NCBI GenBank assembly: GCA_025060325.1
Contig: JANXBW010000031.1
Location: 1 to 48,770, forward strand
DNA: 48,770 nucleotides
Direction of reading: 5' to 3'
DNA from: Thermoguttaceae bacterium
Lineage (GTDB): Bacteria > Planctomycetota > Planctomycetia > Pirellulales > Thermoguttaceae
Position numbers and translations under genes: made by a program. The notes under the pieces are model-generated. The model had not been told where the DNA came from. It searched no databases and worked only from the letters and a program-made list of their open reading frames with translations. Within the stretch, counting starts at the first letter, position 1. Each line of letters begins with the position of its first letter. Positions 7,370 through 39,128 of the stretch are shown here, in pieces.

Positions 7370-8260
7370 ATCGGCGCTTTCAGCACGGATCGTTGCAGGT
7401 CTAATTCGGCTCCCGTCGTGGGAGTTATCCCATTCTGCTTGGCTCTTCGTCCGTTTGACCCCTTTTTACCTCGTGAGAAAATTGCCGAGCCACACCTGGG
7501 CCCGAGCTCGGTCCTTTGTCCCCTTGTCGCCGAGTAATTCGGGCCAATCGGCACCTTTTGCGAGCTTTTTGCCTTCGGCCTTTTGGGGGACGCCTCGCTA
7601 GTCCACCGTTTATCCGCGCGGGGCTCAATGGTCCGGACTGGGGCCAGGTGGTTCTCCGCTTTTTCTGATTTCTCTGAGGAGGCCCTCCTGCGCAGCTCCA
7701 GTCCCAGTCACTTTGGGGGCCCTTCCTTGCTCTCGGTAAGCAGCCGACATACCAGCCTGCCAGAATGGCAGCTCGCTGAAGCAGGTTTGGTGGTAAGCCC
7801 GTCTTGGGTAGCGGGTCCCGCTCCCCAAGTATCGATTGCAATTGCAGTTGCGATGGGACGCCATCCGGGAGGATGAGCTTGGCGCGCAGGTTGCTCCCAC
7901 TGATGGCAAAGCTTGGCTGGTAGCCGCTTTGGCAGATCGGGCGATATTGCTTGGCCCCAAGTAGGGGCCTTTGTAGTGCTTCGTTGTGATCCTTTAAGCC
8001 CCGTTAATAGACCAACCATGGGGGCCTCCGGGGCATAGCCCGACATCCGCGTGGACTTTATGCTCCGAGGCCGTTCAAGTCGGAGTTGTTCTTGGCCCTA
8101 CCGTTTGGCCGGCCGTCGGACGGGCCGACCGAGTGCAGGAGGATCTGTAGACAATTCTGGCCAGGTATCTGTGGCGGTAGGCTTTGGGAAGTTTTTGAGA
8201 GAAATTGGGCTTTGAGAAGTCTTTAGGGGAATTGCGTAAGATCGGTGGAGGCTAGTTCGT
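7370..8260. other. 891-base gap without a convincing gene
   Basis: Several overlapping open frames exist on both strands (up to about 138 codons), but they are rich in Pro, Arg and Ser, contradict each other and match no family I know. A small hairpin, CTCCC-GTCGT-GGGAG at 7410-7424, follows the membrane-protein gene by 40 bases without a T run. The promoter of groESL must lie near the right end. No CIRCE element (TTAGCACTC-N9-GAGTGCTAA) is present before groES. Confidence 0.5.
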
Positions 8261-8587
8261 ATGGCAAAAAAGAAGGCGGAAAACGAGAACACCAAGCAGC
8301 TCAACATTCAGCCTATCGGTGATCGCGTTCTGATCGAGCGGGAATCTGCTGAGGAAAAGACCGCCGGCGGTATCGTTCTGCCGGACACAGCCAAGGACAA
8401 GCCTAAGCGTGGCAAAGTGATCTCGGTTGGTGAAGGCCGAATTCTTCGCGACGGTACTCGGGCACCGTTCCAAGTGAAGGTGGGTGACCGGGTGCTCTTT
8501 AGTGCTTATGCAGGCGAGGAGTTCAAAATAGACGATCGCGAGCTGCTTCTCATGCGGGAAGATGACATTTTGGCGATCATCGAGTAA
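8261..8587 (+). CDS. groES: Co-chaperonin GroES
   Basis: A 108-residue GroES (Cpn10), the heptameric lid of the GroEL folding chamber in the cytoplasm. Motifs: [27 protein letters not shown], where the mobile loop (KTAGGIVLP) contacts GroEL, and [32 protein letters not shown] at the end. It has an N-terminal extension of about 13 charged residues ([13 protein letters not shown]) compared with E. coli GroES. The ATG has GGAGG about ten bases upstream (ggtggaggctagttcgt). groEL follows after 195 bases, longer than in most bacteria; co-transcription is likely but a separate groEL promoter is possible. Confidence 0.97.
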
Positions 8588-8782
8588 TGCCGGCGTAGCA
8601 GCGAAGTTGCTCTGGGTGAGTTGACTTCACGTCGATTTGGTTAGATAGCTAACCCGGCTGTTTACACAAAGACGTCGGGATTAGGTTTGAAATTTCTCGG
8701 CTCCGTATAACAGGGAAATTGAAAGCGTTAACTTGGGGCGTTTTTCGGCGGAACACCATCGGGAATAAGGAGTGGACAAGCT

Positions 8783-10390
8783 ATGGCGAAGATGATCGCT
8801 TTCGATCAGGAAGCTCGCGAGGCTATCCGTCGCGGCGTGGCCAAGTTGGCCCAGGCGGTCAAGGTGACCCTCGGGCCGCGTGGTCGGAATGTGATTATTC
8901 AGAAAAGCTTCGGCTCGCCGACGGTGACCAAGGACGGGGTGACGGTGGCCAAGGAAATTGACCTAGAAGATCCCTACGAAAACATGGGTGCCCGGTTAGT
9001 CCGCGAGGTGGCATCCAAGACAAGTGATGCTGCCGGTGACGGGACCACCACGGCCACCATTTTGGCCGAGGCAATCTTCCTGGAAGGGCTCAAGGCTGTT
9101 GTCTCCGGTGTCAACCCCGTGATGCTGAAGCAGGGGATCGAAAAGGCTGTCGAGGACGTCTGCGAAAAGCTTAAGAAAATGTCGATCCCCATTAAGACCA
9201 CGAAGGAAATGGCTCAGGTGGCGGCCATCGCGGCCAACAACGACATGGAAATTGGCGAGAAGCTGGCCGAGGCGATGGACAAAGTGGGAAAGGACGGGGT
9301 GATCACCGTTGACGAAGGGAAGGGTCTGGGGATCGAAATTGAGCTCGTGGAGGGTATGCAGTTTGACCGCGGCTACCTGTCGCCTTACTTTGTCACCGAT
9401 CCCCAGACAATGCAGTGCGTGCTAGAGGATGCGTACATTCTCATCCATGAGAAGAAGCTTTCCAACGTTAAGGATTTGGTGCCGCTCCTCCATGCCGTTG
9501 TCAACGCCGGGAAGCCGCTCTTAGTTATCGCTGAGGATGTGGAAGGTGACGCTTTGGCCACCCTTGTTATCAACAAGCTAAGGGGCGTGATGAAGTGCTG
9601 CGCTGTTAAAGCCCCTGGCTATGGCGACCGGCGCAAGGCTATGCTCGAGGACATTGCCATCCTTACCGGTGGTATTGCCCTCTTTGAAAGCCTCGGCCGC
9701 AAGCTGGAAAACGTCACCCTGGCCGAGCTTGGTCGGGCCAAGAAGGTGGTTGTTGACAAAGACAATACTACCATCATCGAAGGTGCCGGCAAGAGTTCGG
9801 AGATTAAGGCTCGGATTGAGCAGCTGCGGCGTGAGATCGAAAACACCACGAGCGACTACGACCGTGAAAAGTTGGAAGAGCGTGTGGCAAAGCTGGCCGG
9901 CGGTGTGGCCAAGATTTTGGTCGGCGCTGCCACCGAAAGTGAAATGAAGGAGAAGAAGGCCCGGGTTGAGGACGCCCTTCATGCGACTCGGGCGGCCGTG
10001 GAAGAAGGTATTCTGCCGGGTGGTGGCGTGGCGCTATTGCGGGCGGCTATGCAGTGCAAGCCCAGTGGTCTAAGCCATGACGAAGAGATCGGTTATAACA
10101 TCGTGTTGCGGGCTTGCCGTTATCCGCTGACCCAGATTGCTGCCAACGCCGGCAAGGACGGCACGGTCATCTGCGAGAAGGTGGCCGAAATGGACGGCAA
10201 CATGGGCTACAATGCCCTGGAGGACCGGTTCGAAGACATGGTGAAGGCTGGGATCATTGACCCCACGAAGGTCACGCGAACCGCTCTCCAGAATGCTGCC
10301 AGCGTGGCCATCCTGCTCCTGACTAGCGAGGCCCTTGTGGCCGAGAAGCCCAAGGAAGAAAAGGAAGGCCACGGCAATCACGAGCACTGA
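8783..10390 (+). CDS. groEL: Chaperonin GroEL (Cpn60)
   Basis: A 535-residue group I chaperonin, the tetradecameric ATP-driven folding cage that works with GroES. Hallmarks: [14 protein letters not shown], the ATP-site motif [36 protein letters not shown] in the apical domain, and [15 protein letters not shown] near the end. The usual GGM-repeat tail that fills the cavity is missing; the protein ends in a short charged, His-containing tail ([12 protein letters not shown]). Such tails are common in additional GroEL copies of multi-chaperonin bacteria, so this may not be the only GroEL in the genome. The ATG at 8783 is preceded by AAGGAG at 8767-8772. Confidence 0.97.
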
Positions 10391-18969: not shown

Positions 18970-21636
18970 CTAGTCAGCCTTTCGTCGCAGGAGGATCATC
19001 CATGCCAAGGCTCCTCCCCCTGGGGCGTCTCGCCGATCAAATCGGGTCTCTCGGAGCATTGCGATCTCAAAATCACGGGAAAAATCTTCCCGAATTTCTT
19101 CTTCGCTTACGCGCGGCGGACCGCCTGTCCCGACCTCTCTAGCATTGCCGGCTAGGATCAGCGCCACGCTGCCGGGCCGGGTAAGTTGCCGGAGCGTTTG
19201 CACATATTCCTTGGCACTGGTTCGCCTGACTCCATGATAACAGCCTCGATCGTATACGAGATCAAAAGTGCCCAGGTCCGGCATGCGTAACACGTCGGCC
19301 ACCAGAAAGCGAACCTTGACGCCTTCCTTCTCCGCCGTAGCTGCCGCTCGGGCGATCGCTGTGGGGGAAATGTCAACGGCAGTTACATCGAAACCTTTGC
19401 CGGCCAAGAATCGGGCATCGTGTCCCAGTCCACAGCCGAGCTCAATCGCTCGTCCCGGTCGGAGAAGTCCTTGCTCAACCGCCTCAACCAATTGGCTAGC
19501 AGCTCGGCCGACGTCCCAAGCGGGTCGACTTTCTCCGCGGTAGGCGCTATCCCACCTGGCAAGAAGGGAGAGCCCTTCCGGCGTGTATGGGAGGATGCCG
19601 GAAGCCCATGGGCGCCGCTCCAGGACAACTTCCCCACCTTCGGCGACTCGCACCCAGCCAGCACCTTGATGTGCGGGCGGAAGTTCCAACTGGTAGGTCC
19701 GACCCGCCGTTTGGATCTCCACTCGCGCATTGCCAGAATCGTCCACATTCCAATCAAGCTTGAGCTCGGCCGGGGATTGATCCACACCCTGGACATGAAG
19801 CACGGTGAGAAATCGTGCCGGTTGGCCGGTTGGGGCTTCGATCGCCAGTTGCCAGGTTTCCTTCTTCCGGTCGGTGAACTTCCGTGGACTCACACGGATC
19901 TCCCCACGGGCGGGAAGCAAGCTCCGTCCAACTAGCCGGCTGCCGCCGTTGTCGGTCGAAAATTGTCTGTCGTTCACAGATGGCCGATTGACGGAGTGCA
20001 TGAGCCACGAGATCGGCTGTTCCTTCCCCGCTGGTTCGACCCAGTCATCGATGACGAACGTACGGGGCTTAAGGAAGATAAATCGCCGCAGGAAAACAGG
20101 CGAAGGACTCTCCGCCGGATTGCTAGCGTATGCTAACCCGGCGTCGCCGACTGCATAGGTGAAGAGCTGATTCTCCTCGAAGGCCACGATCCTCCCCGTA
20201 TCAAATGGGCTACCTTTCTCGATAGGTCCGAAGAAGCGCCGCGGATCGGTGCGGAACAATCGTTGGCCATTTCCAATAAGCAGGGTATTGTGCCAATGTG
20301 TTTCTTTGGCCCCGTAGCCGCCGGCATCGATCGCAAGCTCATCGCTGTGGCTAATCAGAAAGCTATTTTGGTCACTGTGTTGATGACCGGCATAATATGG
20401 TCCACAGACAAAAAGTGCCCACACGGCATCGTCAGTCCAGTTGCTCCGTGTGGCCACCCACCCGATACCGCTAAACAGGGTACCAGTGGGCAAAGTCTCT
20501 GGACTTGTGGGCTTGACGGCCGGGTCATACCAAATGACAAGCGGCCAGCCGCGGACCGGATGGCCCGGTGGCACTTGGGACAGCGCCCACTGGGCAAGGC
20601 CGTCGCGGTATCGGTTGGCAAGGAGAACAAGTAGCGCCGACTCCTGCCAACCCCACGGGGCCGGCGTACGAATATCGGCCACCGGCGCCATCGACCGGTC
20701 ATGAGGTCGTGTACAGTAAACAAGCCACCGTGCCGCCCCTCGCAGGCCCGGTGCAGCGGCAAAAAGATTTTCCCCGGTGGCCGTCCGCCAAGCTTCCAAT
20801 TGATGGGCCAGTTCGTAAGCAAAAAAGCTAAAGTAGGCCATTCCCTCGTGCCATCCGCCGTCACCGTTACCGCCGACCTGATTCACGGTGGGCAGAAAGT
20901 GCTTCTGAAGCAGTTCTTCCGATTCGGCCAGTAGCTGGGATGCTTCCTGAGCAAATTCCGGCTCATGAGCAAGCGTAAGCGCCGCGTAAACAAGCGGGCC
21001 GTATTGAAGATAGACCTGATTGTTGTAATCACTATGCCGATAAGCCTGTTTGAGAAGTTGCGTCAGGTGAACAATTCGTTGCCCTAATTGACGTCGCTCT
21101 TCAGGGGTAAGGTCATCTACTAGCCAATCGTAGGCCAGCGAAAGCGCCTTAAGCATCCTGGGCCGCGTCCAATGATCACCCTCGGCCTCCCGGAAAAATT
21201 CTAGGTATTGGCGGATCCGGGAAAGGAGCTTGGGGTCGCGATTCTCCACCAAATACACAACCAGAACCGTGCACAACTCATCCGGGGTGATCCACAAATT
21301 TTTGTTCATCCACTGGCCGTAGGCAAATTCCCGCATCCTCTGATAAGTTTCCTGAACAAGAGGGATTGAGGCCGTGCGCTCCCGAAGTTGTTCGACCTGC
21401 CCGGGCGAAAGGAAAAGACGCGGCCGTTCGCGGCGGACCTCCGCAGCAAAAAGCTGCGAGGCCATGAGCACAATAAGTGTACAAGGAAGGACAGCGCTAA
21501 GGAGTCTGGTTCCCCTTGGGGCAGGATTCTTGGCAGCTCGTGTATCAAATCGCCCGCAAAAACTCCCGCTCAGACGAAAGGCGTGGACTATTCTGCCGAC
21601 AAACCCTCGGCCATGCGGGGAAATGTGCCTTTCCAT
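18970..21636 (-). CDS. Heparinase II/III-like lyase fused to a SAM-dependent methyltransferase
   Basis: An 888-residue two-part protein. A long basic N-terminus with a hydrophobic stretch at about 45-65 (LLSAVLPCTLIVLMASQLFAAE) predicts export. Residues 70-330 are an alpha-barrel like that of heparinase II/III lyases (GNGDGGWHEGMAYFSF), and 360-680 the beta-sandwich with the metal/active-site motif GHQHSDQNSFLISHSDELAIDAGGYG. Residues 690-888 are a class I methyltransferase: motif I IELGCGLGHDARFL at about 731, then VTAVDISPTAI and FDLVYDRGCYHGV, closest to the TPMT/TehB type. The open frame is unbroken through the junction. A SAM enzyme attached to an exported lyase is unexpected, since SAM is cytoplasmic. 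ATG 21636 has AGGAG eight bases upstream. Confidence 0.85.
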   Translation of the reverse strand: MERHISPHGRGFVGRIVHAFRLSGSFCGRFDTRAAKNPAPRGTRLLSAVLPCTLIVLMASQLFAAEVRRERPRLFLSPGQVEQLRERTASIPLVQETYQRMREFAYGQWMNKNLWITPDELCTVLVVYLVENRDPKLLSRIRQYLEFFREAEGDHWTRPRMLKALSLAYDWLVDDLTPEERRQLGQRIVHLTQLLKQAYRHSDYNNQVYLQYGPLVYAALTLAHEPEFAQEASQLLAESEELLQKHFLPTVNQVGGNGDGGWHEGMAYFSFFAYELAHQLEAWRTATGENLFAAAPGLRGAARWLVYCTRPHDRSMAPVADIRTPAPWGWQESALLVLLANRYRDGLAQWALSQVPPGHPVRGWPLVIWYDPAVKPTSPETLPTGTLFSGIGWVATRSNWTDDAVWALFVCGPYYAGHQHSDQNSFLISHSDELAIDAGGYGAKETHWHNTLLIGNGQRLFRTDPRRFFGPIEKGSPFDTGRIVAFEENQLFTYAVGDAGLAYASNPAESPSPVFLRRFIFLKPRTFVIDDWVEPAGKEQPISWLMHSVNRPSVNDRQFSTDNGGSRLVGRSLLPARGEIRVSPRKFTDRKKETWQLAIEAPTGQPARFLTVLHVQGVDQSPAELKLDWNVDDSGNARVEIQTAGRTYQLELPPAHQGAGWVRVAEGGEVVLERRPWASGILPYTPEGLSLLARWDSAYRGESRPAWDVGRAASQLVEAVEQGLLRPGRAIELGCGLGHDARFLAGKGFDVTAVDISPTAIARAAATAEKEGVKVRFLVADVLRMPDLGTFDLVYDRGCYHGVRRTSAKEYVQTLRQLTRPGSVALILAGNAREVGTGGPPRVSEEEIREDFSRDFEIAMLRETRFDRRDAPGGGALAWMILLRRKAD

Positions 21637-26236: not shown

Positions 26237-27730
26237 GTGAAGATGATCTGTGTTAGTATTGCCCGCAGCCAACACCAGGCGATGATCGACACCCACCGAG
26301 AGCTTGTCGCCCAAGGCGCCAGGTTAGTGGAGTTGCGGCTGGATTATTTGGCGACGGCTCCGGATTTAAAGCGGTTGTTGGCCGATCGGCCTTCGCCCGT
26401 CATCGTGTGCTGTCGCCGGAAACGGGACGGGGGCATGTGGGCAGGCTCAGAAGAGGAGCGGCAGATGCTCCTTCGGGCGGCGATTGCCGACGAAGTGGAA
26501 TATGTGGACTTAGAAGAAGACATTGCCCATCAGATCCCCCGCTTTGGCAACACTAAGCGCATCATTAGCTTTCATGACTTTCGTAAGACTCCGGACGATC
26601 TTCAAGCGATCTATGATCGAATGGCCCAGCTTGACCCGGACATTATCAAGATTGTCACCATGGCCAATCACCCGTGTGACAATTTCCGCATTTTGCGTCT
26701 GGTGGCGTCTGCGAAAGTGCCGACCATCGGCTTTTGCATGGGGGAAATGGGCATCCCTTCGAGGATCTTGACGCTCAAATTTGGGGCTCCGTTTACATAT
26801 GCAGCGTTTTCCGAGGAGCGGATCCTTGCGCCCGGTCAACTCAGCTTCCGCCAAATGAGAGAGATCTATCATTGTGAGCGGATCAACCGCGACACCGAAG
26901 TTTACGGTGTTATTGCTGATCCCGTTGGCCATAGCCTGAGCCCTCTTATCCACAATGCGGCATTCCGCAGGTATGACCTCAATAAGGTGTATGTTCCCAT
27001 TCGTGTGCCGCGGGAAGCTTTACGGCAATTCCTGGAAGAAGCCCCGGCCATGGGCATCAAAGGCCTCAGTGTGACCATTCCCCACAAAGAAGCAGTCCTC
27101 GAGAAGTTGACAATGGCCGACAGCGCTGTCCGAGGTATTGGTGCGGCTAATACGCTTGTTTTTCAAGACGGCGAAGTTTACGGTTACAACACCGATTACC
27201 GGGCAGCTATGGATTGTTTGCATGAAGCGCTGGGAATCCCCACCGATCAAGAATCGCCCTTTGCCGGGAAGAAGGCACTGGTGCTGGGTGCCGGAGGTGT
27301 TGGCCGGGCGATGGTCTATGGGCTTGTCCGACGCAAGGCGGAAGTGTACGTGACCGATGGTGATGACGCCAAAGCCCGGCATCTGGCGGAACAATTTGGC
27401 TGTCGGGCACTTGAATGGAACCGTCGGTACGCCGTTCGGCCAGATATCCTAATAAACGGCACACCGGTGGGGATGCATCCCAATGTTGACGAAACGCCTT
27501 ATGATGGTCGGCATCTTCAAGCCGGTATGCTCGTCTTTGATGCCGTGTACAATCCGGAGAACACCCTTCTTATCAAACAAGCCCGCGAAGCCGGCTGCAA
27601 GGTCATCACCGGGGTGGAGATGTTTGTCCGCCAAGCTTGCTTGCAATTCAAACTATTTACGGGCTTGGAAGGTCCTGCCGCCTTGATGCGTGAGGTTATT
27701 AAACGAGCGATTTCGCCGGTCAAAATGTAG
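26237..27730 (+). CDS. aroDE: Bifunctional 3-dehydroquinate dehydratase / shikimate dehydrogenase
   Basis: A 497-residue fusion of two consecutive shikimate-pathway enzymes. Residues 1-215 are a type I dehydroquinase (ICVSIARS, LVELRLDYL with Glu33/Arg35, SFHDFRKTP with His113, DIIKIVTMAN with the Schiff-base Lys138, and LAPGQLSF). Residues 223-497 are a shikimate dehydrogenase: YGVIADPVGHSLSPLIHNAAF, VTIPHKEAV with catalytic Lys284, GAANTLVF, NTDYRA, the NADP-binding VLGAGGVGRAMVYGL, and NGTPVGMHPN. The enzyme converts 3-dehydroquinate to shikimate. Such AroD-AroE fusions occur in plants and some bacteria, including planctomycetes. It heads a run of five plus-strand genes. GTG 26237 or ATG 26243 may be the start; AAAGGG lies just upstream. 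Confidence 0.95.
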   Translation: MKMICVSIARSQHQAMIDTHRELVAQGARLVELRLDYLATAPDLKRLLADRPSPVIVCCRRKRDGGMWAGSEEERQMLLRAAIADEVEYVDLEEDIAHQIPRFGNTKRIISFHDFRKTPDDLQAIYDRMAQLDPDIIKIVTMANHPCDNFRILRLVASAKVPTIGFCMGEMGIPSRILTLKFGAPFTYAAFSEERILAPGQLSFRQMREIYHCERINRDTEVYGVIADPVGHSLSPLIHNAAFRRYDLNKVYVPIRVPREALRQFLEEAPAMGIKGLSVTIPHKEAVLEKLTMADSAVRGIGAANTLVFQDGEVYGYNTDYRAAMDCLHEALGIPTDQESPFAGKKALVLGAGGVGRAMVYGLVRRKAEVYVTDGDDAKARHLAEQFGCRALEWNRRYAVRPDILINGTPVGMHPNVDETPYDGRHLQAGMLVFDAVYNPENTLLIKQAREAGCKVITGVEMFVRQACLQFKLFTGLEGPAALMREVIKRAISPVKM

Positions 27731-27784
27731 CGCGTGGCCGACCTGCGTTGGCTCGGGCTGTGGTGCGGAGACTGAAAGAAAAGC

Positions 27785-28897
27785 ATGATTCGACGAATTT
27801 ACGTCGACAACTATAAGTGCTTAGTGAATTTTGAACTGAAGCTACAGCCGCTGACGGTTTTGGTAGGACCCAATGGAGCTGGCAAAACCGCGGTGCTGGA
27901 AGTTCTCGCCGCTCTTAGAGAGCTCTTGCGGGGCCAGGTTCGTGTAAACGATCGGGCGGCTTTTCCCGCCAGTTCGCTTACCCGTTGGCAGAACCGCCGT
28001 CAACAGGTTTTCGAACTAGAAGTGGGGATTCAGGGGAGTGTGCTGCGCTATCGGCTAGTAGTAGAGCATGATCCCCCAGAACGAGGACGCATCCTTGAAG
28101 AGCGCTTAGACACTGAAGGAAAGCCGCTTTTTTTATTTCGCGAAGGAACGGTCCAGCTTTACCGCGATGATCACACCGAAGGGCCTGGTTTTCCCGCAGA
28201 CTGGAGTTGGTCGGATTTAGCTCGCGTGCCTCCGTCCAAAGATAACCGAAGGCTTGTTGCCTTCCAGGAATTTATGCGTAACTTAACGATTTCCTCGTTT
28301 ATACCGATGAATTTTCGCGCTGAGTCGCATCGCGAAGAGCCTAGCTTGTCTTTCGATGGGAGTAATTTTGCTTCGTGGTATCGGCACTGCCTTCAGGAGG
28401 CGCCCTCGCGGATAGCCGACCTGCAAAAGCGGCTGGCGGAGGCGATCCCAGGGCTTCAGGCAATTAGGTTGGAGAAAGTGGGGGCAGAGGCGCGGGCATT
28501 TAAGATTGCTTTTGCCGATCCAGCCGGCCAATACGAATTATGTCTTGACGAAATATCGGATGGTCAACGAGTCCTAGTAGCTTTGTATACGTTGCTTGAG
28601 TTTGGCGATTTGATTGGGTCGGCGATGGTGCTAGATGAACCGGACAACTACCTCGCGCTTGCCGAAATTCAGCCTTGGCTCATGGAGCTTGTCGATCGGT
28701 GTGGCACAGTCCGGCTACCGCTGGTAATCATTTGTTCCCACCATCCGGAGGTCATTGACTATCTAGGGCCCGACCATGGCGTTTACCTATGGCGCGATTC
28801 CAACGGTCCTACTCTACATAGGCCTTTGCGCGAGGCCATTGGCCAAACAAGCCAACGCTGGTCTGAGATTCTGGCGCGCGGGTGGCAAGAGACATGA
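27785..28897 (+). CDS. ABC-type ATPase of the AAA_21/OLD-like family
   Basis: A 370-residue SMC/RecF/OLD-like ATPase. Walker A GPNGAGKT lies at 28-35 after the typical opening RRIYVDNYKCLVNFELKLQPLTVLVG. The C-terminal part has the ABC signature region LDEISDGQRVLVALYTLL, Walker B AMVLDEPDNYL, and an H-loop in VIICSHHPEVIDYL. Such ATPases pair with TOPRIM nucleases in the OLD, Gabija and PARIS anti-phage systems, but many AAA_21 proteins have other roles. Its stop codon overlaps the start of the next gene by ATGA, so the two are translationally coupled. It starts 54 bases after aroDE. Its neighbours suggest a two-gene defence-like module placed inside the aro operon. Confidence 0.85.
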   Translation: MIRRIYVDNYKCLVNFELKLQPLTVLVGPNGAGKTAVLEVLAALRELLRGQVRVNDRAAFPASSLTRWQNRRQQVFELEVGIQGSVLRYRLVVEHDPPERGRILEERLDTEGKPLFLFREGTVQLYRDDHTEGPGFPADWSWSDLARVPPSKDNRRLVAFQEFMRNLTISSFIPMNFRAESHREEPSLSFDGSNFASWYRHCLQEAPSRIADLQKRLAEAIPGLQAIRLEKVGAEARAFKIAFADPAGQYELCLDEISDGQRVLVALYTLLEFGDLIGSAMVLDEPDNYLALAEIQPWLMELVDRCGTVRLPLVIICSHHPEVIDYLGPDHGVYLWRDSNGPTLHRPLREAIGQTSQRWSEILARGWQET

Positions 28898-29451
28898 GGC
28901 GGGTTACGGTTGTTGTTTTGTGCGAGGACCAGCAACATGAAGTTTTTGCCCGCCGGTTTCTCAAGAAGTTGGGTGTCGGTCCGAGGGACCTCCGGATAGT
29001 TGGGATCGTGCCGGGTAAACAATCGGCTGAGCAATTCGTGCGGGAAAACTTTCTCAAGGAACTTCGGGACTACCGGCGGATGGCAGCGCGAAAGGCCACT
29101 GCACTTGTAGTCTTGATGGACGGGAATACCCATGGCCCGGCCGAGCGACAAAGGCAGTTAAGAGAGGCTTGCTCCGGGCACGGGGTGGAATGGATCCGAC
29201 CTCGGGAAAAGGTTTTACTGGCCTTTCCTACCTATCGAATCGAAAATTGGTTCTCCTACCTCGATGGCAAGGAAGTCCCGGAGCATGAACGATGTCCGAG
29301 ACTAAAGAATCCTAGCGATTGTCAGCGGCATGTGGATCAACTGTGGGAAATCTGCCAAAGCCGGCAATTGCCTGCGGATATGCCTGAATCCTCGCGTCGT
29401 GTTTGCGTGCGGTTTGACCGGCAGTCCTGGAGGGATATGAGCAAGTCATGA
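28894..29451 (+). CDS. TOPRIM-like (DUF4276/DUF4435-type) partner of the ATPase
   Basis: A 185-residue protein. It begins like a small TOPRIM domain: RRVTVVVLCEDQQHEVFARRFLKKLG with acidic residues at 11-12, then ALVVLMDGNTHG with Asp76 in the DxN/DxD position, and FPTYRIENWFSYLDG with Glu117 in the IENW motif found in DUF4276-like and RloB-like proteins. TOPRIM partners of AAA_21 ATPases usually cut nucleic acid or form gating complexes. The exact family is inferred from these motifs, not confirmed. ATG 28894 overlaps the ATPase stop codon (ATGA), and the stop codon at 29451 overlaps the aroK start in the same way. A GTG at 28882 is also in frame. Confidence 0.72.
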   Translation: MRRVTVVVLCEDQQHEVFARRFLKKLGVGPRDLRIVGIVPGKQSAEQFVRENFLKELRDYRRMAARKATALVVLMDGNTHGPAERQRQLREACSGHGVEWIRPREKVLLAFPTYRIENWFSYLDGKEVPEHERCPRLKNPSDCQRHVDQLWEICQSRQLPADMPESSRRVCVRFDRQSWRDMSKS

Positions 29452-29978
29452 ATCTTGTGCTTATTGGCTATCGCGCGACTGGTAAAACAACACTTGCCCG
29501 GCTTTTGGCCGAGCGATTGGGTTGGCAGTGGGTTGATGCCGATGTGGAGATTGAGCATCGGGCGGGCAAATCGATCGCGCGGATTTTTGCCGAGGACGGT
29601 GAGCCGGCCTTTCGCGACCTTGAGGCAAAGGTCATCGCCGATCTTTGTGCTCGGGATAAGCTCGTGATCGCCGCTGGGGGTGGTGCCCCAATGCGCCCGG
29701 AAAATCGGCAGGCGATGAAGCAATCGGGCAAAGTGATTTGGCTTCAGGCCAGTCCTCAAACCATTTATCAACGCATGTATTCGGATCCCACCACGGCCGA
29801 GCGTCGCCCCAATCTCACAGCACGCGGGGGTTTAGAGGAGATAATCGAGCTTTTGTCCAAGCGCGAGCCAGTCTATCGTGAAACAGCTGATTTTACTGTC
29901 AACACGGAAGGCCGACCGCCGGAGGTCTTGGCCGAGGAGATCCTGTCCGCTCTTGCCCCGTGGCTACAAGGAGCCTAG
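29448..29978 (+). CDS. aroK: Shikimate kinase
   Basis: A 176-residue shikimate kinase that phosphorylates shikimate at the 3-hydroxyl with ATP, the fifth step of the pathway. Motifs: NLVLIGYRATGKTTLARLLAERLG (P-loop GYRATGKT at 7-14), DADVEIEHRAGKSIARIFAEDGEPAFRDLE (substrate site), VIAAGGGAP, VIWLQASPQTIYQRM and the LID element RRPNL. Its length is typical. The ATG overlaps the stop codon of the TOPRIM-like gene. It works downstream of AroDE in the same operon; AroA, AroB and AroC are not in the window. Confidence 0.95.
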   Translation: MNLVLIGYRATGKTTLARLLAERLGWQWVDADVEIEHRAGKSIARIFAEDGEPAFRDLEAKVIADLCARDKLVIAAGGGAPMRPENRQAMKQSGKVIWLQASPQTIYQRMYSDPTTAERRPNLTARGGLEEIIELLSKREPVYRETADFTVNTEGRPPEVLAEEILSALAPWLQGA

Positions 29979-29981
29979 CCC

Positions 29982-31304
29982 GTGGATGCAGCGGCATTCT
30001 TTTGGGGAGGTGGCTGGCTCCTTCTCGGAGGACTAGGTCTTTGCGTCGGGGCACTTGTCAACTGGGCTGTTTACGAATTGGCGTACAATCGTCGCCCAAT
30101 AAGCCCTTGGTCCCCGGGGCGCCGGGGACCTGTTACTTGGGCCGATCGTGTGCCAGTTTGGGGTTGGCTGAGACTCCGACGGGAGGAATCAACGTGGGGA
30201 AAAGGGTTTTGGATTCGTCCGGCGGGGGTGGAGGCGGCTTGGGCGGTCGCATTACCGGCTCTTTATTGGTGGGAGGTGGTCGTTGGCGGCGTTGATTTTG
30301 CCAGCCAGCCGGCCGATCTTGCCACACTGCATGTCCGCTTTGCCTTCCACGCAGTTCTCTTTACTTTGATGACAGCCGGCTCGCTTATTGACTTGGACGA
30401 AAAAACCCTGCCGGATGCCATCACGCTGCCTGGCACATGGCTTGGTCTCTTACTGGCCGCCCTCTATCCGTGGGCCCTTCTCCCCGATTTGCCCCGAATA
30501 CCTTTTGAGGATCGCTTGGAAGCAATACTCTCGGGGCATTTGTCAACTGCCGAAATTATTCGCGACCTGAGGAGCGATTATCGCTTCTTGCATGCTGCCT
30601 CCCCATACCCGTGGCCTTTTGCCCTGGAAGGTGCCCCCAATGGTCCTGCACTTGCACTTGGGTTATCGCTGTGGTGGTTTTGGTGCTTTGCACTCATGGA
30701 CCGGAGGTGGCACGGTCGGCTCGGCTTGCGGCGCGCATGGCGGTACTTTTGCGCTCGGCTTGTAAGAAGTCCGGCATCGCATTTTGCCTTCGCCATGGGG
30801 CTTGTCGGCTCGCTGGGGATTGTGATCGTGTGGACTGTGGGGGGCGAACGATGGCGGGGACTTTTGTCGGCTTTGATCGGCTTAGGAGCCGGGACAGCTC
30901 TTGTGTGGGGTGTACGCCTTTTAGGAGGTTGGGCACTTGGCCGGGAGGCAATGGGATTTGGTGATGTGGTTCTGATGGCCCTCTTGGGGACAGTTGTCGG
31001 CTGGCAAGGAGTGCTGATTATTTTCTTTGTCGCGCCGATAATTGCACTTGGTTTCGGCATTGTCCACGCTATTTTGCGGCAGGGGACGGTTATTCCCTAT
31101 GGCCCGTTCTTGTGTTTGGCGGCCGGATGTGTGATCCTCTCCTGGGGCAGGCTTTGGCCGGAGCTTACTCCTATTTTCCGTTTGGGCTGGGTGTTGCCCT
31201 TGGTGCTGAGCGGATGTCTTTTGCTCCTGCCCCCACTTCTTGTAGTTGTGCGATTGGTTCGGGAAGTTTTGGAAGCGCTGCTCATCAAAGACATCCGTGA
31301 TTAA
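29982..31304 (+). CDS. Prepilin peptidase (A24 family, leader peptidase)
   Basis: A 440-residue membrane protease that cleaves and methylates prepilin leaders. It begins with a hydrophobic segment and VGALVNWAVYELAYNRRPISPWSP, the family's N-terminal region. The catalytic aspartates lie in SLIDLDEKTLPDAITLPG (137/139) and in the GFGD motif (325-328, MGFGDVVLMALLG). The zinc-binding Cys motif of classical type IV prepilin peptidases is missing, so the methyltransferase function may be reduced. Multiple transmembrane segments. A24 enzymes process the GFTLVELLVVI-type leaders seen at 47.3 kb. GTG 29982 has AAGGAG eight bases upstream and follows aroK by three bases. Confidence 0.88.
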   Translation: MDAAAFFWGGGWLLLGGLGLCVGALVNWAVYELAYNRRPISPWSPGRRGPVTWADRVPVWGWLRLRREESTWGKGFWIRPAGVEAAWAVALPALYWWEVVVGGVDFASQPADLATLHVRFAFHAVLFTLMTAGSLIDLDEKTLPDAITLPGTWLGLLLAALYPWALLPDLPRIPFEDRLEAILSGHLSTAEIIRDLRSDYRFLHAASPYPWPFALEGAPNGPALALGLSLWWFWCFALMDRRWHGRLGLRRAWRYFCARLVRSPASHFAFAMGLVGSLGIVIVWTVGGERWRGLLSALIGLGAGTALVWGVRLLGGWALGREAMGFGDVVLMALLGTVVGWQGVLIIFFVAPIIALGFGIVHAILRQGTVIPYGPFLCLAAGCVILSWGRLWPELTPIFRLGWVLPLVLSGCLLLLPPLLVVVRLVREVLEALLIKDIRD

Positions 31305-36992: not shown

Positions 36993-38483
36993 CTACGCTC
37001 TAGGGGGAAGCCTGAACAGCTTTCTCCACCACGGGCGGTGAGCCCAGCGAAGTTGGTCGCGGAGCGAGCTTAATTGGTTTTCCAAAAAGGCCAGCTGTTG
37101 TTCGGCGAGTTGCTTTTGCGTTGTCAGTTCGCTAAGCGACATTTCAAGGGCGCGAATCTGATCGGTGCGCTCATCAAGCTGCATTTGCATCTGGCGTTCG
37201 CGGAGTGAGAATTGCTCTTCCGCCCGCAGGCATTCGTTCTCCAGCTCCTCGAGCTGGGCTTGTAGTCGCTCAATTTCGGCAGAAAGCTCGGCTACGCGAT
37301 TGGTGAGACGCTCGTTTTGCTCTCGCAACTGGCCAAACTCGTCCGGTTCTTCCCCGGCCGGGCGGCCAGCTTCTTCCAGCACCTCCAGTGGCACAAACTC
37401 CTTGACCTGCTCCCTAAATTCGGCAACCCGGCGGCCGGGCAGGTCTCGCTCGTATTCATCATGCCGCAGGTAGATCAGGCAGACAAAAACTTTGTCGCCT
37501 TGCACAAACCCGGCGACTCTCTCGGGCTGATGGGGAAGCTTGTAGACTTGGAGGTCGGTACCGGAAAAAGAGTGTAAATGAGCGTTGCGCCATAACGGAT
37601 CTTGAAGTAACGTCAGGAAGTTCCTCAGCCGCTCCCGAACGTCTCCCCGACTCTTGTCGTAAACTTCCTTTGCCATCGGCGAAAGATGGATATGCTTAGT
37701 ATCTATCACCCATTCTTGAACGAACATCTCCCCCAAGCCCGAGAGCGTCACGTAGTCTTTCTCGTCCCTTTCAATGAGCGGCTCAAACCAAGCCCGGTCC
37801 TCGTACATGAGGCCCGGGATCTCGCGAAAGAACTCTTCCGCTGGGAGTATTTTCGCATTTAATAATCGCTGCAGTGCCGTCCGGCCCTGAGCCAATAGCT
37901 CGTAGTTGAAGTGAAGCGGCAACGGAGGTAGCCGAATAAGTGTGTTGCTATTTTCGAAAATGTACACAACCTCGATACGCCACATGAGGCCAAATAGAGT
38001 AAGGTACGGCACTACCGCCTTAAAACCTCCTGTGGCATCGAGCAGTACTTTGCGGTTATCCGGGTCCTTTTCCCGCCAGGCGACGCACTTTTCTTTGAGG
38101 ATTTCAAAAAGATGCCTTATCCCCTCCCGCCGAAAACGTTGGGCATCGCTCACCTGGAGCCCCCAGACCTGTTTTGTTTCGACATGGACCCTCAATTCTT
38201 GCCTCAAAACTTTTTCTAGCGCTTCAGCGGCTTCTTTCCCTGAATTGGTCTGAGTGTGGAGCAGAATGACTTCGTCGCCCTGCGAGATTCCCAGGCGGGA
38301 AAGGCTGTTTGTTTCCGCGGACAATTTGGCCAGAAACTCCTGCTGGCTAGCGGCTTGGCTTTTCAGTGCCGCAACAAATTGCTGTAGCAACGTGTATGTG
38401 GAAAGCTTGCGCGCCTTATTCCCGAGAAATCGCTGGGCATTGGTTTGGATAGAGATACCGGTGGTACACACGATTCGCTTCAT
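36993..38483 (-). CDS. CARF-like protein with RelE-like domain and coiled coil (candidate CRISPR ancillary effector)
   Basis: A 496-residue protein. Residues 1-190 resemble the CARF-like APE2256/Csm6-type family of type III CRISPR ancillary proteins: MKRIVCTTGISIQTN opening, QGDEVILLHTQTN, and the motif LLDATGGFKAVVPYLTLFG (about 147-165), which in that family contacts cyclic oligoadenylate. Residues 191-265 look like a short winged-helix-like linker (YVTLSGLGEMFVQEW). Residues 268-347 match a RelE-like fold (SPMAKEVYDKSRGDVRERL, then SGTDLQVYKLPHQPERVAGF, then VFVCLIYLRHDEYERDL). Residues 383-478 are a coiled coil, ending in a Trp/Arg-rich tail (RPWWRKLFRLPPR). CARF-RelE fusions such as Cami1 are signal-activated ribosome-dependent RNases. 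ATG 38483 is chosen for the CARF start; the frame is open to GTG 38621. Confidence 0.8.
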   Translation of the reverse strand: MKRIVCTTGISIQTNAQRFLGNKARKLSTYTLLQQFVAALKSQAASQQEFLAKLSAETNSLSRLGISQGDEVILLHTQTNSGKEAAEALEKVLRQELRVHVETKQVWGLQVSDAQRFRREGIRHLFEILKEKCVAWREKDPDNRKVLLDATGGFKAVVPYLTLFGLMWRIEVVYIFENSNTLIRLPPLPLHFNYELLAQGRTALQRLLNAKILPAEEFFREIPGLMYEDRAWFEPLIERDEKDYVTLSGLGEMFVQEWVIDTKHIHLSPMAKEVYDKSRGDVRERLRNFLTLLQDPLWRNAHLHSFSGTDLQVYKLPHQPERVAGFVQGDKVFVCLIYLRHDEYERDLPGRRVAEFREQVKEFVPLEVLEEAGRPAGEEPDEFGQLREQNERLTNRVAELSAEIERLQAQLEELENECLRAEEQFSLRERQMQMQLDERTDQIRALEMSLSELTTQKQLAEQQLAFLENQLSSLRDQLRWAHRPWWRKLFRLPPRA

Positions 38484-39128
38484 TGGAAGGTTCCCTTTGT
38501 AAATCTGAAAGTGGCGAAGAGCGTTGACGAATTGTCGCCCGCTTGCTTTTAAGGCAGAATAGCCAATGTATGAGAAAGTCCACAATAACCGCACAAATCG
38601 CCAGTTAGTATTCGCCAGCACCCTTGGCCAGGAGTTTCGCCTGTCACAGAGGGGGGACGGCAGTTTGAGCGACCGCTACCCGCAAGCAGAGGGAGTTTCG
38701 GCTCTCACAGAGGGGGGACACCGCGCACCGCCTGTGTCGCCGCCGCGCAAACTTTGGGCGCCGCGAAAGGACACTGTCCCAGCTTTGCAAACGATCTTGG
38801 CGCACTTTCCGGTGGGCGGCCGGAGAAACAATTACGCTTTCCGCCCGTGTCGCGTCTACAGCTCCGCCCTCGGGGGCTCCGAAAGCTCTGCGGCCAGGAG
38901 TTTCCTGATTTACTTGGGACCACCTGCTTACGCCAGACGACTATGTGGGTAGTCCACCTCTTTCAGTGACCTGGCCGAGGCTCCTGGATTTTTCCTTACA
39001 CCAAGGGCCCGTTTGGCCCCAAGCAAACCAAATCCGCCCGGCGGGGAGGGCAAAGGACATTGACCTCCGTACCCTCCTGAGAGGGAACAAAGTTAATCCG
39101 GTTTCCTAACGTTGACGAATAATTGGGC
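38484..39128. other. Upstream region of the CARF gene
   Basis: A 645-base gap holding the two-repeat CRISPR-like element (38631-38719), the likely promoter of the CARF gene, and a partial repeat-like sequence (GGCCAGGAGTTTC at 38892-38904, also found at 38626-38638). No gene is convincing here. Confidence 0.45.
38631..38719 (-). CRISPR. Two-copy CRISPR-like repeat, possible remnant array
   Basis: A 28-base repeat occurs at 38631-38658 and again at 38692-38719 with 26 of 28 matching bases, separated by a unique 33-base stretch. On the minus strand it begins GTCCCCCC, has a short inner palindrome (CTGTGACAG or CTCTGTGAGAG) and ends in GAAACTCC. A 28+33 layout and a GAAAC end resemble CRISPR repeats. 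Only two copies exist and no cas1/cas2 are nearby, so it may be a remnant, a mini-array or a regulatory repeat. The CARF-effector gene starts about 150 bases away. Confidence 0.4.

Follow-up and report, generated by a model that had tools for sequence, protein, structure and literature searches.

The PARIS system consists of an ABC ATPase, AriA, and a TOPRIM protein, AriB, encoded by separate genes in one cassette. The accessible text of one report describes AriA hexamers that hold AriB and release it on binding of Ocr or similar proteins, after which the freed AriB cuts tRNA (PMC12409363). The published detection rule for PARIS calls for an AAA_15 (at least 32) or AAA_21 (at least 27) ATPase and an adjacent DUF4435 protein (at least 27), and the available part of the same source reports PARIS to be functional in cells that have neither type I RM nor BREX (PMC9122126). 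PARIS has also been found inside a BREX locus, in Salmonella D23580, where the portion of the account at hand records no PARIS defence with the phages tried (PMC11341690). OLD proteins have been sorted into classes, with PARIS proposed as class 4, as outlined in the accessible part of that work (PMC10568477). OLD-ABC ATPase-nuclease modules, with TOPRIM-linked pairs in the lead, are described in the available sections of a further report from BREX loci and their kin, in at least 1242 taxa (PMC12839542). A different role is described, again in the text accessible, for the class 5 OLD protein Cran1, an archaeal OLD-type ATPase with a TOPRIM nuclease that is essential, acts in the cell cycle and is apparently not defensive (PMC12796447).

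A gene pair of this general kind lies within a shikimate operon of a Thermoguttaceae bacterium, in what we call the window, the whole 48,770-nucleotide stretch of DNA analysed here. The pair is a divergent addition to a known kind of defence module, and its location is the unusual part. The first gene of the operon, aroDE (26237..27730, forward strand, as are all genes of the operon), encodes a fused type I 3-dehydroquinate dehydratase/shikimate dehydrogenase (Pfam DHquinase_I 7.2e-55, Shikimate_dh_N 7e-24). It is followed by a 54-bp spacer (27731..27784), by a 370-aa OLD/Rad50-type ABC ATPase with a putative sensor role like that of AriA (27785..28897; ATG at 27785, stop at 28895-28897), and by a 185-aa TOPRIM-like protein, the putative nuclease effector in an AriB-like role (28894..29451; ATG at 28894, TGA stop at 29449-29451). 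Shikimate kinase, aroK (29448..29978, ATG at 29448; Pfam SKI 1e-47), and a prepilin peptidase of the A24 type (29982..31304; Pfam Peptidase_A24 2.5e-13) come next. Both genes of the pair are intact, full length and co-oriented with aroDE and aroK, and the ORFs and the two ATGA overlaps, at 28894..28897 between ATPase and small gene and at 29448..29451 between small gene and aroK, are as the first-pass annotation had described them. The last base of aroDE is 27730, and with 54 bp separating it from the ATPase, overlaps are limited to the two downstream junctions.

That annotation had also called the pair translationally coupled to the operon. The overlaps are real, whereas coupling of the pair to aroK is something one may infer from them, and the ATGA at aroK is part of that gene's own ATGAAT start, which both congeners in the data set (G001 and G002) possess without the pair. 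This ATGA is thus the natural aroK start rather than something the cassette brought. At its very C-terminus the window small protein has a few residues without counterpart in most relatives, and on the simplest reading the inserted small gene ran on into the aroK start. The order aroDE-aroK-peptidase is also kept in relatives that lack the pair, and the cassette is probably expressed together with the aro operon.

The ATPase is well defined by its motifs. In an alignment of 77 of 81 ATPases (alignment A4, with L137, L140, L148 and L168 left out), the invariant or nearly invariant residues include those of Walker A, GPNGAGKT (residues 28-35, 27866..27889; G28, G31, G33 and K34 in 77/77), the ABC signature, SDGQR (residues 258-262, 28556..28570; S258 and R262 in 76/77, G260 in 77/77), the Walker B region, MVLDEPDN (residues 281-288, 28625..28648; D284, E285 and N288 in 77/77), and the H-loop, SHHPE (28736..28750; H319 in 77/77), which bears out the four motifs named at first pass. 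The protein scores above the Pfam thresholds of AAA_21 (65.4 bits, 1.2e-17) and AAA_15 (44.2 bits), and none of the relatives found exceeds 54% identity to it. Its AlphaFold2 model (pLDDT 93.4) matched PtuA best in Foldseek (3.3e-14), with Rad50 and OLD (TsOLD) also matched, and the first rows of a VIA-align search were SMC/Rad50 heads (Z 21.3-22.0, 281-292 residues, rmsd 3.1-3.5). With Walker A, signature, Walker B, H-loop and a predicted Rad50/SMC-like fold, it has the properties of an OLD-type ABC ATPase.

Assignment of the small protein is harder. Pfam gave no match at E 1 for the window protein, and a profile search of solved structures with its family returned nothing under E 0.3. Its AlphaFold2 model (pLDDT 92.5) has a TOPRIM-like order of strands and helices, with E11 following strand 1 and D76 following strand 3. 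An alignment of 66 of the 69 small proteins with placed starts (alignment A3, with L128, L140 and L148 left out) shows E11-D12, at the position of the TOPRIM glutamate (28924..28929), to be present in 66/66 each, as are D76 of the D76-G-N78 motif at the TOPRIM DxD position (29119..29127) and E117 of a conserved IExW motif (29242..29244). Foldseek returned no match under E 0.001 for the model and so lends TOPRIM no support by itself. The best VIA-align row was the OLD TOPRIM domain 6nk8 (Z 7.3, rmsd 4.2, 146 aligned), a middling value on a scale where Z below 8 is suggestive at most; a second OLD TOPRIM domain accounts for three of the first nine rows (6njv, 6njw, 6njx; Z 5.9-6.2), and the OLD TOPRIM entries are mixed with unrelated Rossmann-like folds. 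Taken together, motifs, predicted topology and VIA-align are suggestive of a TOPRIM protein. AriA and AriB were not among the best rows of the Foldseek and VIA-align searches, which excludes nothing.

How closely, then, does the pair match a named system? The ATPase satisfies its part of the PARIS rule, whereas the small protein lacks the DUF4435 match, so the pair is not PARIS by the published definition, and kinship to AriB lacks sequence support. At E 0.1 the 66 small proteins matched 20 Pfam families; DUF4276 appears weakly in 9 of the proteins and DUF3226 weakly in 7, and DUF4435 is absent. The label "PARIS-like" holds as an analogy, for the two separate ABC ATPase and TOPRIM-like genes in one cassette, and not as a class assignment.

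In the PADLOC collection the ATPase scores highest with HEC-01A (2.6e-30, residues 2-342), ahead of the PDC-M25A, AriA and mad3 models among 111 families. One HEC-01B model matches 38/66 small proteins with E values of 0.1 or lower, down to 1.7e-06, while the window small protein alone reaches only E 0.025; one PDC-M38B model matches 22 of the 66 and mad4 matches 11. The candidate pair HEC-01A and HEC-01B reportedly stems from a preprint of Payne and colleagues, and HEC-01 was not found by name in a literature search. Likeness to MADS is confined to single proteins: the ATPase matches mad3 (PADLOC 1.4e-15) and scores 63.1 bits against the NCBIfam MAD3 equivalog, far from the cut-off of 420, the small protein matches mad4 weakly (0.035), and no MADS operon was seen adjoining the pair, which is accordingly no MADS member. 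None of the papers listed by a literature search on MADS was relevant. Elsewhere in the window an 888-aa protein (18973-21636, reverse strand) matches MADS mad2 over residues 693-859 (PADLOC 1.6e-21), probably through a shared domain rather than as part of MADS.

The two genes travel together. The small protein was matched in 9/296 genomes of the order, each time with the ATPase beside it, and ATPase relatives at 38% identity or more are found in 5 further genomes of the 119 in the family. Searches of named bacterial and archaeal genomes gave 246 ATPase relatives, the best 80 of which (a selection of best matches, not a random sample) span many phyla at 41-54% identity. In 76 of these 80 the small gene lies directly downstream of the ATPase, which is more pairing than chance would give. 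The two genes overlap by 4 bp in 49/69 pairs in which both starts could be placed, the window included, which makes this internal overlap a common cassette feature. In L100, L109, L121 and L143 a further 4-bp overlap joins the small gene to the ORF that follows, provided that the starts, which were chosen mechanically, are correct; the next protein has a guanylate-cyclase domain in L109 and an aldo/keto reductase domain in L121, and no Pfam match in L100 and L143.

A tree of the 77 ATPases requires 28 changes of phylum label, against a minimum of 17 for 18 labels. This agrees with transfer between phyla, although binning errors and paralogues can add changes. The labels are nevertheless more clustered than in any of 200 shuffles (mean 46.9 changes), so inheritance within phyla matters too. 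Consistent with foreign origin of the window copy, as the favoured reading below would have it, the ATPase has the lowest GC3 and the poorest codon fit of the 23 window genes; the codon fit of the small gene is ordinary. No relative of the pair was confirmed in viral contigs, none was found in phage records at E 1e-10, and only 2/72,556 plasmid records matched at E 1e-20, with 27-28% identity.

The question of whether the pair belongs to the shikimate operon can be addressed directly, by the comparison of aroDE-aroK spacing in relatives that the first-pass annotation had proposed. In 37/119 family genomes, picked by hand, aroDE and aroK share a contig and follow each other in order; genomes in which the two genes fall on separate contigs or one of them is unmatched were left out, as were G026 and G075, where the genes share a contig but lie far apart (G026) or on opposite strands (G075), and two of the 37, G021 and G030, have partial aroK matches. 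The gap is 8-421 bp in 35/37, both congeners included: 317 bp in G001, with an aroDE 90% identical to that of the window, and 111 bp in G002, with an aroDE 76% identical. Neither tblastn nor blastn found a trace of the pair in G001 or G002. Larger gaps among the 37 are limited to the window (1720 bp, holding the pair) and G035 (1950 bp). The pair is thus an insertion between aroDE and aroK in the window lineage, the site being empty in 35 of the 37 testable genomes.

In G035, which belongs to another genus of the family, the junction is occupied by a 608-aa gene (L076 3030-4856, reverse strand) with SLFN_AlbA_2 (Schlafen) and HATPase_c_4 domains; it has a weak relative (28% over 194 aa) next to BREX genes in L096. 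That one junction holds two different cargoes hints at a tolerance for inserts, and two cases are no proof of a hotspot.

These comparisons weigh heavily against a housekeeping role, in which the pair would regulate or protect shikimate synthesis genes or some other core function, in the way that Cran1 serves the archaeal cell cycle. The pair does sit co-oriented inside the operon, with a stop/start overlap with aroK and intact ORFs, and the existence of an OLD protein with an essential and apparently non-defence function, as far as the accessible text of PMC12796447 describes it, is why we keep the idea at low weight. Cran1, however, is described there as one two-domain protein that is archaeal, conserved and essential, whereas the window pair is a scattered two-gene cassette. 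Furthermore, the pair is absent from the other 36 testable junctions, G035 having a different gene there, and its relatives lie elsewhere: tblastn at E 1e-5 found no aroDE, aroK or peptidase relative in the best 80 loci, nor in the pair-holding loci of the order's other genomes, and no aro genes lay near the pair in the stretches of those genomes that were read. A candidate reading in which the pair is conserved at the aro site, which the first-pass annotation had named as refuting its case, was rejected on the same grounds, relatives having the junction without the pair and the pair without aro genes. A housekeeping role tied to the shikimate pathway, one of two readings left open at first pass, is therefore disfavoured, and we regard it as very unlikely. 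The other, a defence cassette inserted without breaking the operon, is supported by the empty sites, the patchy occurrence in the order and the BREX genes or fragments beside some relatives.

BREX genes (PglX, PglZ or BrxL) adjoin the pair at 7/80 of the best loci. The pair lies between pglX and pglZ-brxL in L111, L156, L157 and L174, and between pglX and pglZ with other genes intervening in L120; what remains of the cut contigs L096 and L097 agrees with this pglX-pair-pglZ order. Six more of the 80 carry fragments of BREX genes only (L098, L099, L100, L101, L105 and L110). In all six the end of pglX lies just upstream of the pair, and the start of pglZ lies just downstream in L098 and, more weakly, in L110. 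The fragments were detected with PglX-tail and PglZ-head models built from the BREX-bearing loci, which match these models by construction, whereas fragments and controls stood outside them. Support is good for L098 (tblastn 9e-34), L099 (4e-12), L101 (2e-27) and L105 (9e-11). It is moderate for L100, which only the model picked up (1e-06), and weak for L110, with tblastn values of 1e-04 and 1e-05. Only 1/392 control segments, taken 2.5-6.3 kb away, fell under E 0.05, and that one holds the intact PglX of L120 itself. Excluded from the BREX-linked count were L095 and L114, with a short PglZ-start-like stretch seen by eye, and L108, with a weak PglX-like match about 6.5 kb upstream. By these tests 67/80 of the best loci have no BREX link, and several of them adjoin ordinary genes.

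In L098 a lone intact pair lies between a pglX tail and a pglZ head (7492-9933) in the manner of a BREX fossil. L120 (7800-9800) has, in addition to full pglX and pglZ matches, a stray PglZ-head fragment upstream and a stray PglX tail downstream, an arrangement that looks like the duplication of a segment. The nearest neighbours were also searched with PADLOC: 144 ORFs were picked mechanically, 7 longer than 900 aa and, by hand, 3 overlapping the small gene were dropped, and among the matches listed for the remaining 134 one PglX and one PglZ model have 4 matches each, PDC-M32A, mad3 and HmaA two each, and several other defence models one or two. Some relatives are therefore embedded in or beside BREX operons, as is PARIS in Salmonella and as are the TOPRIM-linked OLD-ABC modules described in the accessible text of PMC12839542, which are the same type of gene pair. 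The window copy differs from those modules in its biosynthetic operon and in having no BREX neighbours, and it is thus no BREX accessory by position.

The window pair might still be an orphaned BREX accessory, once lodged between pglX and pglZ, that lost its BREX locus and then moved into the aro operon; this is compatible with the favoured reading of an acquired defence cassette. The pglX-pair-pglZ loci and the lone pairs with fragments speak for it, as does the membership of L098 (the Thermogutta-labelled record G113) and L097 (G062) in the window's own family. Against it, no recognisable PglX or PglZ trace remains at the window junctions, the upstream spacer being free of a PglX tail. The window genome (95.6% complete, in 89 contigs) yielded no PglX or PglZ of this type either; models P0005 and P0006 were used for that search because PF08665 is too narrow for BREX, as the PglZ on contig C637 of G062 escaped it and was detected by P0005. 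In the ATPase tree the window protein is a long branch (0.71) without a supported place inside a BREX-linked clade. The congener G002 has a BREX-type locus with PglX-like and PglZ matches (contig C167, about 10.5-15.8 kb), yet neither protein of the pair has a match in that genome. A move is also needed on top of BREX loss. An earlier impression from identity values, that the window copy descended from a BREX-embedded one, was not upheld by the tree. Given the tree placement, the genome free of PglX and PglZ and the clean junctions, we treat a BREX origin of this copy as possible and go no further; the full scenario, with loss and relocation, seems to us rather doubtful.

A less active fate for the insertion also has to be considered, that of a decaying passenger, inserted once, now catalytically dead and neutral, and kept in place since its loss would have a polar effect on aroK. 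Residue 78 of the small protein is D in 64/66 and N only in the window and L117, so the window protein may have little TOPRIM activity left, or none. The poor codon fit seen for the ATPase points the same way, as does at least one relative with a broken ATPase. That relative, L094 in G052 (7895-9031, reverse strand), has an in-frame TAA near residue 78 of the ATPase and an open small gene adjoining it, a copy that is possibly decaying; its ATPase was left out of alignment A1 for the stop. In the window, however, both ORFs are full length and the other counted motif residues are intact despite an ATPase identity of 54% at most to any relative. This makes a dead passenger improbable.

The reading that we favour, and hold to be probable, is that of a horizontally acquired two-gene defence cassette, an OLD-type ATPase with a stand-alone TOPRIM protein, that was inserted between aroDE and aroK and would act by PARIS-like abortive infection. 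By analogy with PARIS and OLD, a mechanism with the ATPase as sensor of infection and keeper of the TOPRIM protein is likely. The ABC ATPase would assemble and hold the TOPRIM protein inactive until it senses a signal of infection, which may be an anti-restriction protein of the phage. Once released, the TOPRIM protein would cut nucleic acid and halt growth, so that the phage fails. PARIS needs neither type I RM nor BREX in the cell, so an orphan pair could suffice by itself.

The surroundings in the window offer little other sign of defence. The first-pass annotation had named shikimate genes and a prepilin peptidase as the only neighbours, which is correct for the immediate ones, although a 542-aa gene about 7.5 kb downstream of the pair (36996-38621, reverse strand) encodes a CARF-RelE protein of the Csm6-like type (CARF domain; CARF-RelE/Csm6 in PADLOC, 2.7e-50; Pfam Cas_APE2256, 2.4e-24). 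This is the only recognised defence-type gene nearby besides the pair. A crude test for a CRISPR array in the window found no 20-mer present three times. Nothing on point was among the papers listed by literature searches on defence inserts in housekeeping or planctomycete settings, which is no proof of absence.

A broader scheme can be sketched, which we offer as speculation of low probability. ATPase-TOPRIM guard modules might outlive BREX and settle autonomously in core operons, with the start codon of the next gene serving as stop, so that their loss harms an essential gene; the aroDE-aroK junction would be such a landing site, with this pair as cargo in one genus and the Schlafen-AlbA_2 gene in another, and a DxN TOPRIM protein would possibly be de-toxified, allowing constant expression.

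What is striking about the pair is its position in a core biosynthetic operon and, in relatives, the occurrence of lone pairs that still carry fragments of BREX. The six of 80 loci that retain the end of pglX, one or two of them with the start of pglZ as well, provide a handle on how such pairs persist after the adjoining BREX genes are lost. The window pair also makes possible a direct test of whether a TOPRIM family without DUF4435 acts like AriB. Its locus shows that a PARIS-like cassette can occupy a core biosynthetic operon, a place where searches based on defence islands would miss such pairs.
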